From the NCBI GenBank assembly GCA_016938615.1, contig JAFGUH010000242.1:1-36191 (forward strand): a stretch of 36,191 nt of DNA, read 5' to 3'. This DNA is from Halothiobacillaceae bacterium. GTDB taxonomy: Bacteria > Pseudomonadota > Gammaproteobacteria > Halothiobacillales > Halothiobacillaceae. Positions 32,659 to 36,124 of the stretch are shown one piece after another. The position numbers and the translations under genes are program-made. How positions within the stretch are numbered: position 1 is the first letter of the stretch; each line of letters starts with the position of its first letter. The notes under the pieces were generated by a model that saw nothing but the letters and a program-made list of their open reading frames with translations, made no database searches and was not told the DNA's origin.

Positions 32659-34029
32659 TCACCCCGCCGGCATCGCCTTGAGCCAGGCGGTGGCGATGCC
32701 GAAGTAGATCAGGATGCCGCCGATGTCGGCGATCGAGGTGATCAGCGGGGTCGAGGCGGTCGCCGGGTCGAGCTTGAGGCGTGTGAGCAAAAACGGCAGC
32801 AGCATACCCACCATGCTGCCGAAGACCACCACGGCGATCATCGACAGGAAGATGACGTTCGCAAGCATGGTCCCACCGTAGAACAGCCCGATCCCCCAGG
32901 CCGCGGCGCCCATGGTCAGGCCAAGCGCGGTGGCCACGCCCAGTTCGCGTACCCATAGCCGCGCCCAATCGCCGGAGGAGACGTCGCCGGTCGCCAGCGC
33001 ACGCACCATCATGGTCGCCCCCTGCGATCCGGCGTTGCCGCCCGAGCCGATGATCAGCGGCAAGAAGAAGCTCAGCACCACCGCCGCCTTCAGCGTCTCC
33101 TCGAAGGCCGAGACCGCGCCGGCGGCGAAGATGGCGAGAAACACCAGCATCAACAGCCAGCCGATCCGCTTCTTGAACAGTTCGAGGATCGACGCGCCGC
33201 GCAAGCTGATCTGCTTCGCCCCCAGGCCACCGAGCTTGTGGATATCCTCGGTGGCCTCCTTCTCGACCACGTCCATGACGTCGTCGATGGTCACCATGCC
33301 CAGCAACACCCGGCGATCGTCAATCACCGGCAAGGCAGTGTGGTCGTAGTGCTGGATCAGGTGGGCGACCTTTTCGCGATCGTCGCCGACCGTCACGTGC
33401 TCGGGGTCGCTGTCCATCAGGGATTCGACCGTGGCCTCGGGCTCGCCCAGCACCAGCTTGCGCAGGCCGGTCCAGCCAAGCAGCCGGCCACGATCGTCCG
33501 TGACGAAGAGCGTGTTGATGGTCTCACTGTGCCCGGCGTGCCGCTGCACGTGCTCCAGCGCGGCGGCCAACGTCCACTCCGGACGCAGGGCGATGAATTC
33601 CGTCGTCATCAGGCGACCGGCACTCTCCGGCGGATAGCCCAGAATGCGCAGCGCCTGTTGCGTCCGGTGCGGGCTCAGACGTCGGACGACCGACTCGCTC
33701 TCCTTCTCGCCCAGGGCCTCGATCAACGCCGTCAGGTTATCCGGGCGCAGCGCTTCGAGCAGCTCGTGCGCCCGCTCCTCGTCCAGCGACTCGACCAACG
33801 CGAACTGGGCCCCGGGCTCGAGAAAACCGAACACCCGTTCGCGCCGCTCCTGCGACAGCAAGTCGAGCGCCCGCGCCATCTCCTCCGCGGACGCGCCCGC
33901 CATCGCCCGGGCGATGTCCTGGTCACGGACGGCATCGAAGTCATCGCAGAGCGCATCGGCCCCGATCTCGTCGCGTTCGAAGCGGGCGAGGCGGTCGGCG
34001 AGTTGTTCGATGGTTTCCGTGGGGATCAT
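32659..34029 (-). CDS. mgtE: MgtE magnesium transporter
   Basis: MgtE is a Mg2+ channel gated by cytoplasmic magnesium. The 456-residue protein has the N-domain of helical repeats (1-130), a CBS pair (about 134-260, MTTEFIALRP ... VIDDRRVLLGMVTIDDVMDV), a plug helix, and five membrane helices with the pore blocks PLIIGSGGNAGSQ and DPATASTPLITSIADIGG. All parts are full length. The ATG is at 34027-34029. No Mg2+-sensing leader could be recognised upstream. Confidence 0.96.
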   Translation of the reverse strand: MIPTETIEQLADRLARFERDEIGADALCDDFDAVRDQDIARAMAGASAEEMARALDLLSQERRERVFGFLEPGAQFALVESLDEERAHELLEALRPDNLTALIEALGEKESESVVRRLSPHRTQQALRILGYPPESAGRLMTTEFIALRPEWTLAAALEHVQRHAGHSETINTLFVTDDRGRLLGWTGLRKLVLGEPEATVESLMDSDPEHVTVGDDREKVAHLIQHYDHTALPVIDDRRVLLGMVTIDDVMDVVEKEATEDIHKLGGLGAKQISLRGASILELFKKRIGWLLMLVFLAIFAAGAVSAFEETLKAAVVLSFFLPLIIGSGGNAGSQGATMMVRALATGDVSSGDWARLWVRELGVATALGLTMGAAAWGIGLFYGGTMLANVIFLSMIAVVVFGSMVGMLLPFLLTRLKLDPATASTPLITSIADIGGILIYFGIATAWLKAMPAG

Positions 34030-34106
34030 TTGGGTGTATGCCTTGGGGCGTCCGTTTCGACTGGCGTCAGGGAAATATAACCGCGAGTGGTGATTCCGCC
34101 GCGTCC

Positions 34107-34131
34107 TGTGGTAGCGGGCCCTGCCCGCGAA
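34107..34131 (+). repeat. Diverged R1 REP-like palindrome, single copy
   Basis: The unit begins TGTGGTAGCGGGCC, differing from the R1 consensus by a G-to-T and a loop change. No inverted partner was found within 150 bases. Confidence 0.7.
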
Positions 34132-34287
34132 GGCCGCTCCGGCGACCGTGATGCCGACAGGATGACATGCCTGTTTGAACAGAGCATGTCGGGTCGTGCC
34201 TGGAGGGTGGTGTTAGGAACGTGGGGATGGGTTTCACGCGCGTTTTTCCCTAAGGGGTCTCGATGAACGCACTTCGATGCGCGCGAG

Positions 34288-34500
34288 CCCCTTTTCTTGC
34301 TTGTCCAAGAAAAGGGGCGAAAAGAAAGACACCCCACGGCTTGGCCCTCGGGCCTTCGAGGCCGGACGGCGTCCGACCTCGAAGCCTCACAACCGCCGGC
34401 TGGCTTCGGGGCCGGCTCGACGCGACGTCGTGTCGCGGCGAGCCTCGGAGCGACGTCCATGTCGCTCCGACCCCGGCCACCCGCCGGCCGTGAGGCAAGC
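34288..34500 (+). repeat. Multi-hairpin repeat element, copy 1
   Basis: It opens with a perfect 12-bp hairpin (CCCCTTTTCTTG, loop CTTGTC, 34288-34317) followed by CGAAAAGAAAGACACCCC. A long CTTCGAGG/CCTCGAAG hairpin follows near 34360, then a hairpin at 34415-34443 (GCTCG.CGCGAC / GTCGCG.CGAGC), and a perfect 9-bp hairpin with loop GTCCAT at 34446-34469. GAGGCAAG closes it. Copy 2 has the same order in the other orientation. Confidence 0.8.
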
Positions 34501-34640
34501 CCTAGGGGGAAGGCCTCCGCCGACCCGAGTGCAAGATATGCCGATCCGGCTACCTCTTCAGGCATGGTCCGCCTAGACCCAAACAAGGCATGGCACAGCG
34601 AATAGCACCGAACGAGAACGAAGGGGAAATCCCCGTGGCG

Positions 34641-34823
34641 CCTTGCCTCGCGAGCGGGGGATTGCAGGGACGGGCCGGCACGGACGCCGGCCCGAGGTTC
34701 GCCGCGACAGGACGTCGCGTCGAACCGTGCCCGTCGGCAAGCCCCCGGTCGCGAGGGGAGCCCGCAGGGCCAAGGCGCCGGGGCGTCCTTCTTTTCGGGT
34801 GTTTTCTTGGACGAGCAAGAAAA
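34641..34823 (-). repeat. Multi-hairpin repeat element, copy 2 (inverted)
   Basis: On the minus strand it opens with an 8-bp hairpin (TTTTCTTG, loop CTCGTC, 34802-34823), then CGAAAAGAAGGACGCCCC, a hairpin with GGTTCG/CGAACC arms (34696-34726), a 9-bp hairpin with loop GTCCGT (34671-34694), and a final GAGGCAAG. Stems match copy 1 in pairing rather than in sequence. Confidence 0.8.
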
Positions 34824-34915
34824 TACCCTCGCGCGCCGAGCAAGGCGGTTTACTGAAAACCACCGAACGAAAACGGCGTGCGAAACAACAAACCACGCCG
34901 AAAAGCGGCCGACGG

Positions 34916-35980
34916 TCACACCCGTCGCAAGTAAGCCGTCACCTCATCCCGATCGTGATACAGCTGCCGAATGTCGATATCGAAGTCGACTTCCGCCTCC
35001 TCCAGCCGATCCGCGATCCGCTCGACTGCATCCATCACCGCCTGCTGGCGCTTCTTCATCGGCAGCTTGAGATTGAAGATCGCCCGTCGGCAGTCGCCGC
35101 GCGCCACCCAGGCGGCCATCAGGTCGGCCACACGCGAGGGCTTTTCCACCATGTCGCAGACCAGCCACTCGACCGGCCGGTCGGGACGGAAGGTGAAACC
35201 GTCCTCGCGGCGATGCTCGACGGAGACGTGTCCGGTCAGCACGTCCGCCATCGGGCCGTTGTCGACGGCAGCGACCATCAGCCCGTCGCGCACCAGCTGC
35301 CAGGTCCAGCCGCCCGGTGCGGCACCGAGGTCCACGGCCTCCAGCCCGGCGCGCAGCAACTCTTGGCGCTCCGCGGGCGAGAGGAAGGTGATCAGCGCCT
35401 CCTCGAGCTTGAGCGCCGAACGGCTGGGCGCCTCCTTGGCGAGCTTGAGGCGCGGGATGCCCATCGGCTTACGCGCGGCCTGCCCCGGATGCGACCAGCC
35501 GGGGATCGCAGTGGTGGTATCGGTAAAGGTGAGATGCAACCGCGGCAGATCTGCATTGCCCGGATCCAGCAGCCCGCGCTTGCGCATCGACTGCTCCAAC
35601 GGCTTGGTGAACTGGCGCGCCAGTCGCATCAGCGGCCGGGTCGCTTCGGCATCCGGCGTCTCGACATAAACCCCGCCGTATTCCTGCCCCTCGATCGCGG
35701 CAAGGATCGGCCCCAGCCGGTTGTCCGGCGGCAGGTCGGCCAGAGGCTCGCCTGCCAGGCACATCTGCCGGGCAAAGATCAGCTCATCGAGTGAAAGCGT
35801 CTCGAACCACTCGGCCAGCGCGTGCGTGTCGTGGGCGATGAAGGTGAGATAGCCGGTATCGGCCTTGGCCTTGCAGTAGCCATGAACGCCAGCCTCGACG
35901 GCGACGGCCTGCACCTGGGCGGCGCAGTCGCCCTCAAAGCCGGCGCGGGTGAGGAGAAGCAATCGGGATTCGTGTGACAT
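34916..35980 (-). CDS. rlmM: 23S rRNA 2'-O-ribose C2498 methyltransferase RlmM
   Basis: RlmM methylates the ribose of C2498 in 23S rRNA. The 354 residues have the N-terminal THUMP-like part (LLLLTRAGFEGDCA) and the block LSLDELIFARQM. They also show MGIPRLKLAKEAPSRSALKLEEA, the SAM-binding VDLGAAPGGWTWQLV, VDNGPM, CDMVEKPSRVADLMA, FNLKLPMKKR and a closing RQLYHDRDEVTAYLRR. All match RlmM in order. The ATG at 35978-35980 is chosen from the family start. Another ATG is 12 bases upstream, and neither has a strong ribosome site. Confidence 0.95.
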   Translation of the reverse strand: MSHESRLLLLTRAGFEGDCAAQVQAVAVEAGVHGYCKAKADTGYLTFIAHDTHALAEWFETLSLDELIFARQMCLAGEPLADLPPDNRLGPILAAIEGQEYGGVYVETPDAEATRPLMRLARQFTKPLEQSMRKRGLLDPGNADLPRLHLTFTDTTTAIPGWSHPGQAARKPMGIPRLKLAKEAPSRSALKLEEALITFLSPAERQELLRAGLEAVDLGAAPGGWTWQLVRDGLMVAAVDNGPMADVLTGHVSVEHRREDGFTFRPDRPVEWLVCDMVEKPSRVADLMAAWVARGDCRRAIFNLKLPMKKRQQAVMDAVERIADRLEEAEVDFDIDIRQLYHDRDEVTAYLRRV

Positions 35981-36051
35981 GACGCGAAGCATGCCAGAGC
36001 GCGGCGAGGATTCCAGTCTGTACGGCACGCCATCCGCCGGTCGGGCGGATT

Positions 36052-36124
36052 GTCGGGCTGAAGCCCGACCCACAGGACCCTGTCACCACCGAGGCTCTCC
36101 CTGTGGGTTGGACTTCAGTCCAAC
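36052..36124. repeat. Inverted pair of REP-like palindromes (family R3)
   Basis: Unit 1 (36052-36076) and inverted unit 2 (36100-36124) share CCTGTGGGT and a CTTCAG loop. Their stems differ as GTCGGGC/GCCCGAC against GTTGGAC/GTCCAAC, which are paired changes. The unit lies about 70 bases upstream of rlmM. Confidence 0.8.

Follow-up and report, generated by a model that had tools for sequence, protein, structure and literature searches.

What kind of element occupies the gap between mgtE and rlmM in a contig of a Halothiobacillaceae bacterium (GenBank assembly GCA_016938615.1, contig JAFGUH010000242.1; all 36,191 nucleotides analysed are referred to as the window), and is its shape kept as RNA, as DNA or as that of a mobile unit? 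Two elements of about 200 bp had been described here from the letters alone, facing each other and built of hairpins whose stems change on both sides. The genome of the window is represented by an incomplete assembly of 2.4 Mb, and its genus is very probably Guyparkeria.

Layout of the inverted pair between mgtE and rlmM

The pair is situated between rlmM (34916..36073, minus strand; Pfam RlmM_FDX, RLMM_N and FtsJ), the upstream neighbour with its 3' end toward the element, and the downstream neighbour mgtE (32659..34029, minus strand; Pfam MgtE, CBS and MgtE_N). That two elements face each other in this gap is right and far beyond chance. The arms 34407-34473 and 34667-34733 (67 nt) are 81% complementary, and the same value is found for the arms 34279-34335 and 34780-34836 (57 nt). 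The named stems and loops are present at or beside the positions that the sequence-only reading had assigned to them. Among these are the stem CGGAGCGAC-GTCCAT-GTCGCTCCG of the left half, which is altered on both sides to CGGGCCGGC-GTCCGT-GCCGGCCCG in the minus strand of the right half, and the GCTCG/CGAGC stem with its counterpart GTTCG/CGAAC. The proposed extent, 34288-34823, locates the element correctly but is too narrow: the paired domains span 34286-34830, and the unit also includes the end motifs at 34231 and 34874-34886. Mapped by these motifs, from GTTTCACGCGCG to CGGCGTGCGAAAC, the whole inverted pair covers 34231..34886, with no strand assigned. Ends resembling those of the window are found in the other three pairs of the same genome, where the contig extends so far, and at many Guyparkeria loci.

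Both halves are matched by the Rfam family TwoAYGGAY (RF01731), on opposite strands and with E-values of 1.1e-7 and 3.6e-6 in the whole-window search. The left core (34407..34475, minus strand) scores 53.3 bits and the right core (34665..34735, plus strand) 60.1 bits, at a gathering cut-off of 43; for no other Rfam family does the window contain a match above the gathering score. The sequence-only reading knew of no characterised function for such repeats and did not name the family; TwoAYGGAY is an orphan RNA family. AYGGAY hairpin 1 lies at 34447..34468 (minus strand) in the left half, with the loop motif CATGGACG (CANGGANG), and at 34672..34693 (plus strand) in the right half, with the loop motif CACGGACG (CANGGANG).

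According to the consensus structure, the RNA domain from P1 through the pseudoknot spans 34286..34511 in the left half (sense minus) and 34630..34830 in the right half (sense plus). These multi-helix half-units of 200-226 nt fold with z-scores of -10.5 (left) and -6.6 (right) relative to 200 shuffles each; the right half is devoid of hairpin P5. A descriptor of the pseudoknot-triplex gave exactly two matches over the 36-kb window, one per half: 34287..34331 on the minus strand (S1 TGTC/GACA, L1 TTCTTTT, S2 GCCCCTTTTCTTG/CAAGAAAAGGGGC) and 34784..34829 on the plus strand (S1 CGTC/GACG, L1 TTCTTTT, S2 GGGTGTTTTCTTG/CAAGAAAATACCC). Between the two halves, one pair of S1 is altered on both sides. 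A coding role for the gap was considered and rejected; the 297-aa frame that spans it (34026-34919, minus strand) has no Pfam match and is probably a chance frame in G+C-rich DNA.

Covarying fold, pseudoknot and predicted third strand

The alignment comprises 42 Guyparkeria halves out of 63 halves listed; the 21 omitted by eye belong mostly to a TTTCTCTT subfamily or are divergent or broken copies. In the RNAalifold consensus, P1 closes the domain, and the 3' arm of P1 abuts the pseudoknot. Consensus and pseudoknot together amount to 80 pairs in nine helices, with 99.2% of the cells paired and 33 of the 80 pairs altered on both sides. At 0.346, the covariation score compares with 0.129 in shuffles (0 of 500 as high), and slid controls stay at or below 0.080. 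Score, paired cells and both-side changes are higher than in any of the 500 shuffles or slid controls, whereas the count of further pair types does not rise above the shuffles (190/500). Selection on folding, as suspected earlier, is strongly supported by this covariation and by the compensating changes. Judged from the aligned copies, both the TwoAYGGAY and the pseudoknot parts covary, with both-side changes in two of the four pairs of helix 8 (pseudoknot S1). The loop of hairpin 1 reads CANGGANG in 42/42 halves, and the stem around it covaries. Hairpin 2 carries GGA in 26 of the 42 halves and lacks it in 16; the left half of the window reads CACGACG. P1 is better than all ten shuffles in 28/49 Guyparkeria matches, 12/22 matches of the sister genus g3 and 27/88 other matches; due to this last proportion it is only weakly supported outside the family.

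The paired cells differ between the strands. In the consensus structure of the sense strand, 115 G-U cells oppose 5 A-C cells over the 42 halves. RNAalifold favours columns with G-U, which is corrected in part by an antisense-optimised consensus, where 9 G-U cells oppose 37 A-C cells. Single-sequence folds are lower for the sense strand in 41/42 halves, and 149 hairpins across loci contain 56 G-U and 12 A-C. Since cruciform DNA would lack such an asymmetry, it argues for a structure on one strand, as RNA. Of the two forms left side by side by the sequence-only reading, RNA of one strand is thus favoured and the cruciform is not. Across many copies and several taxa, compensating changes on the sense strand are shown to keep the predicted secondary structure, pseudoknot and third-strand code.

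The leading hairpin and its flank had been noticed before, but the pseudoknot with a predicted triple helix, of which they are parts, had been missed: the sequence GAAAAGAARGAC of the flank is antisense to the pseudoknot arm and third strand (GTCYTTCTTTTC). The loop of the hairpin TTTTCTTG/CAAGAAAA measures six nt and reads GNCRAG in most copies; its first four bases pair with the arm immediately 5' of a pyrimidine tract, giving an H-type pseudoknot. The descriptor fixes a single G-C closing pair and no other letters, and requires the third-strand code. Over 187 descriptor matches, S1 is formed with 4/4 pairs in 174, 3/4 in 9 and 2/4 in 4, by 15 combinations; the chance of 4/4 is estimated at about 6% or somewhat more, because the best of three spacers and several placements is taken. 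A five-pair S1 arm was rejected: it is found in 96/120, most of the misses are shifts of the register by one base, and an arm of four pairs gives the better fit. In a set of 168 matches S1 is absent in 9.

The tract L1 (TTCTTTT) fits a parallel Hoogsteen third strand on the purine arm AAGAAAA of S2. Among 178 matches found from hairpin and loop alone, the third strand is complete (7/7) in 164 and incomplete in 14, among them three G172 copies with a replaced L1 and locus L078 with one wrong third-strand letter. The register of the third strand moves with the arm (AAGAAAA/TTCTTTT, AAAGAAA/TTTCTTT, AAGAGAA/TTCTCTT, AAAAGAA/TTTTCTT), and 39 of 47 non-standard purine arms match the code, whereas 2000 permutations give 11.9 on average and 22 at most. 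Arms with an inverted T-A pair (AATAGAA) are accompanied by TTGTCTT, which places G on T-A, in 14/16 cases, while the A predicted for a mirror repeat occurs in 0/16. In pyrimidine triplexes, G is classically the base placed opposite T-A. A mirror repeat or H-DNA as the source of TTCTTTT/TTTTCTT is ruled out for arms with T-A inversions. In AAACGAA arms (C-G inverted, two matches) the third strand has C or T, and the mirror rule also fits one of them. AATAGAA arms are mainly found in one Guyparkeria subfamily and one further genome, G172; when genomes of the whole class were searched by pattern for arms with a T-A inversion, 6/369 matched, chiefly Guyparkeria and G172, and one of the pattern matches, L256, is no pseudoknot.

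The triple is 7-8 steps long in 161/168 matches and the lower stem (linker) measures 6 nt in 111/168. Six pairs in the lower stem would fit the short distance over which the deep groove of A-form RNA is crossed. For 56 diverse hairpins the covariation of the S2 stem is 0.482 versus 0.189 in shuffles; in the short pseudoknot alignment the covariation score is above shuffles but both-side pair changes are not (265/500). Most canonical matches stem from a scan with fixed S2 letters, and independent events are far fewer than matches, since copies within a genome are related. Some copies are altered. In the G172 copies L255, L265 and L270 the TTTCTATT-type hairpin is kept and L1 reads GGATCGAA or similar, which breaks the triplex code. 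At L106:520-580 and L095:530-620 the 5' arm of S2 is swapped for a similar CATGACTTGGC/CATAGCTTGGC-like stretch, resulting in a broken arm; the two copies belong to separate species and separate loci, and the replacement looks like a product of template switching.

Telomerase RNA and the SAM-II riboswitch contain H-type pseudoknots with a major-groove triplex. The pseudoknot of the element shares their topology, in which a pyrimidine strand runs parallel to the purine arm as third strand; neither is known to be related to the element in sequence, host or context. Its predicted third strand, of 7-8 steps in nearly all matches, differs from theirs and includes G on T-A and C or T on C-G. The pseudoknot-triplex domain has no name in Rfam and is apparently undescribed. 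No account of it was found in the open-licence literature searched, which is no proof that none exists; a small-RNA study of Alcanivorax (PMC9788540) is unrelated to the element.

Copies in the genus, its relatives and other phyla

Further copies were found in the genome of the window and in its relatives. The own genome contains eight RF01731 matches that form four pairs, all minus-then-plus, and 19 of the 57 genomes searched, the own genome included, have matches. Five tabulated genomes of the genus contain 20 minus/plus pairs, one plus/minus pair, one minus/minus pair and 23 unpaired matches; at several of the tabulated unpaired matches, motifs of both halves are present. In the sister genus g3 (genomes G012 and G016) 17 plus/minus, that is tail-to-tail, pairs and 29 unpaired matches were counted. 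These two genomes carry a dispersed unit of about 600 bp, with copies up to 92% identical, and tail-to-tail units are also present in g3 and in G011, another sister-genus genome. A 48-position model has matches in 16/28 genomes, including the own, with 11 in G000, 24 in G010 and at least 150 pseudoknot matches in G011 (loci L285-L304). In G013, G015 and G017 (genus g4) no match to this model was found among up to 150 candidates scored per genome; G021, of the same genus g4, has two RF01731 matches. Arrays of alternating orientation, composed of halves about 90% identical, are seen in G011, several of them reaching contig ends.

Of 44 Guyparkeria loci, 32 fall into ten flank clusters spanning at least two genomes and 12 are unshared. 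Both flanks are common to 13 pairs of loci, and the four pairs of the own genome occupy sites common to sister species. A pseudoknot hairpin pair is located just downstream of rlmM in six of the ten genomes with a full rlmM (G000, G002, G003, G005, G007 and G010). In G006 an element pair lies upstream of rlmM, a decayed remnant is visible by eye upstream of rlmM in G005, and the motifs used detect no element at the rlmM locus of G009. The shared flank clusters and the comparison of the rlmM sites indicate long-standing inheritance of the copies in place, accompanied by gain and decay. The earlier suggestion of a mobile unit survives in part: units are dispersed and amplified as inverted dimers, but neither a mobilising enzyme nor a consistent target duplication was found, and many copies sit at sites common to several species.

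Two rlmM loci have further peculiarities. In G001 (L059:614-1264, plus strand) a 216-aa frame with a C-terminal TonB_2 domain (E 4.4e-11) is flanked by one full and one truncated half, as if carried inside the element. In G008 (L061) a lone end motif GGTTTCGCACGCC is present downstream of rlmM at the orthologous site, the rest being missing.

A pattern scan of contigs yielded at least 115 stretches, 80 of which are listed by name. Among those listed are Thioalkalivibrio, Alkalilimnicola, Pseudomonas, Stutzerimonas, Kangiella, Salinisphaera and Thiobacillus, as well as Geothermobacter, Runella and MAGs of further phyla. The domain is also found in Fusobacteriota and Bacteroidota. The descriptor matches with at least 3/4 S1 pairs in 15 of 17 named records tried, the exceptions being a Nitrospirota MAG and Burkholderia cepacia. 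Some MAG taxon assignments may be binning errors; records without MAG in the title include Geothermobacter, Runella and Ilyobacter. The copies of Ilyobacter and Variovorax are from plasmid records.

With a relaxed descriptor, opposite-strand neighbours within 1200 nt point outward in 29/30 cases; of these 29, no fewer than 11 belong to the genus of the window and another 11 or more to other genera of the pattern scan. This descriptor gives 17 matches in 905,186 reversed bases as background to 173 real matches, of which 64 have an opposite partner and 109 have none within 1200 nt. In 80 partnerless matches, an upstream antisense match beats shuffles in 12, compared with 3 for the downstream control.

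A phage or plasmid origin was considered and discarded, since searches of plasmids and phages gave few matches and none with the element of the window, for which distant searches returned neither. With a Pseudomonas copy as query, three plasmid records and no phage were obtained, and with a Thiobacillus hairpin 11 plasmid records, all of at least 203 kb, and one weak 26-nt phage match. A fixed hairpin pattern matched one stretch in viral contigs.

Proposed working and alternative explanations

We consider it somewhat better than even (a probability of roughly 0.55) that the pair is an inverted pair of structured RNAs that are made by read-through, end in a triplex module, bind CsrA in the lineage of the window, spread as dimers and were then inherited in place. 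From the centre outwards, each half would consist of a multibranch domain closed by P1, with the two TwoAYGGAY hairpins, followed by the H-type pseudoknot, in which L1 is predicted to lie in the major groove of S2 and to make Hoogsteen contacts to the purine arm. No promoter was found in the mgtE/rlmM gap, and scores for divergent promoters in the centre are not above shuffles (mean 6.28 over 61 halves versus 6.50). As the centre lacks a promoter, the halves are presumed to be transcribed by read-through from neighbouring genes; given the inverted arrangement, a transcript entering from either side would finish in one sense half at its 3' side. Close to the 3' end of the RNA, the triplex pseudoknot could then serve as a rigid module, either withstanding nucleases or binding a protein. 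The units would have been spread and amplified as inverted dimers by some agent, and many copies would then have been inherited in place.

In the lineage of the window, hairpin 1 may bind CsrA/RsmA, its CANGGANG being the consensus of these proteins. The element would be a read-through RNA module that probably binds CsrA in this lineage. The gene csrA is present in 27/30 genomes; the three misses, G000, G004 and G034, are incomplete assemblies. It was not found in the genome of the window, whose assembly is incomplete. TwoAYGGAY was matched to CsrA sites by RMfam (PMC4333381), and its first description lists it as a probable RNA, but probably not a cis-regulatory one (PMC2864571). Inspection by eye revealed no CsrA motif in betaproteobacterial and Desulfuromonadales contexts, for which reason CsrA binding cannot be the general function.

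An account in which the copies constitute a distributed small-RNA pool that titrates CsrA, as RMfam proposed for TwoAYGGAY, would draw on the same invariant loop with its covarying stem, on the wide occurrence of csrA and on the published motif match (PMC4333381). It appears unlikely, however, as GGA is missing from hairpin 2 in 16/42 halves, no promoter was found, and Rfam recognises TwoAYGGAY in only 3 of 18 pseudoknot-hairpin loci (L185, L159 and L149). CsrB/RsmZ-type RNAs share the hairpin loop CANGGANG; unlike them, the element has one invariant site per half within the genus, many genomic copies and no visible promoter. The few sites between divergent genes (2/19 pairs and 6/59 singles kept after filtering), terminator-like sites in the gap (6 versus 1.4 expected) and a convergent downstream gene in 47/75 cases are what one would expect of a two-way 3'-end device, either a transcription stop or an mRNA 3' stabiliser for the genes on both sides. 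Nevertheless, the upstream gene is co-directional in only 33/75 cases, or 37/59 singles, by rough gene calls, and a U-run after the pseudoknot stem is missing in the window, so that we regard such a device as distinctly unlikely. These counts of gene orientation rest on rough gene calls after matches within frames or distant from genes were dropped (e.g. 75 of 128 kept), and the bias in neighbour orientation is weak, with no strong rule.

Explanations at the DNA level have to account for the strand asymmetry. A REP/BIME-like palindrome that is acted on by RAYT (Y1 transposase) in cruciform or single-stranded form, with no role as RNA, is quite improbable: although inverted doublets and alternating arrays resemble BIMEs (PMC2817692) and arrays of alternating halves occur in G011, the structure is strand-asymmetric, the units of the window are multi-helix and 200-226 nt long as opposed to palindromes of 20-40 bp, and Y1_Tnp (PF01797) is unmatched in G005, G006, G011, G014 and G016, all of which carry the element. 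RAYT is not supported as a general mobiliser; PF01797 does match in certain other carriers, among them G000, G001, G003, G010 and G012, and no GTAG-type tag was seen by eye at the stems. More generally, the element is like REP, BIME and REPIN sequences in being extragenic and in forming inverted doublets and alternating arrays, and unlike them in its much larger size, its RNA-strand specificity and its presence in genomes with no Y1 transposase match.

A non-autonomous transposon of the MITE type, moved in trans by a DDE transposase via terminal inverted repeats, would explain the 24-nt terminal inverted repeat near GGGTGTTTACAAAACGAAGGTTTG at the outer ends in G011, the Guyparkeria ends GTTTCRCGCGCC, which are terminal inverted repeats, and the highly similar dispersed dimers of about 600 bp in g3. 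The repeat in G011 resembles IS256-type ends. However, target duplication is inconsistent (TGA on both sides in two units, absent in others with both ends seen), the IS256-type transposase (PF00872) is unmatched in G006, G010, G011, G012 and G016, and both the RNA-strand structure and the triple code are left unexplained, which makes this origin doubtful. With no match in the five genomes searched, the IS256-type transposase is not supported as a general mobiliser either. The element is comparable to MITEs in being short and dispersed and in the terminal repeats of G011, and differs in that neither a partner transposase of the IS256 type nor a consistent target duplication was found. Reverse transcriptase as the agent was discarded too: it is matched in G011, G012, G016 and G017 and unmatched in the five Guyparkeria genomes searched and in G013, G014 and G015, so there is no link to the element.

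Since TwoAYGGAY is mostly unrecognised outside the lineage, a more general role is to be expected of the pseudoknot, for which a 3' block or a protein platform is the best guess. Tentatively, and somewhat short of an even chance, the pseudoknot-triplex may be the core of an undescribed RNA class that spans phyla, with TwoAYGGAY as only one of several 5' partners, and a protein recognising the triplex may drive or license the spread of inverted pairs. With respect to TwoAYGGAY as described, the element agrees in a core above the gathering score and, less clearly, in two hairpins that carry ANGGA-like loops on a shared stem, the second of them with GGA in 26 of 42 halves. It differs in that this core lies within a larger P1-closed domain followed by a pseudoknot-triplex outside the Rfam matches, that the halves form inverted pairs, and that the 3' domain also occurs where the core is unrecognised. 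In this way an orphan RNA motif acquires a more complete structure, together with a partner domain at its 3' side and a genomic arrangement. In addition, the domain provides a large natural set of sequences from which a Hoogsteen code, including G on T-A and C or T on C-G, can be read from evolution. Both the role of TwoAYGGAY RNA and the question whether dispersed bacterial repeats are kept for RNA structure become testable.

Of relevance to the pseudoknot-triplex as a possible core is an Oscillospiraceae MAG (L186:3700-4035), in which two outward pseudoknots are 276 nt apart. Here the pseudoknot hairpin is the sole inverted repeat of at least 12 nt found between the two sides, and a G+C-rich hairpin adjoins S1 of the right pseudoknot.
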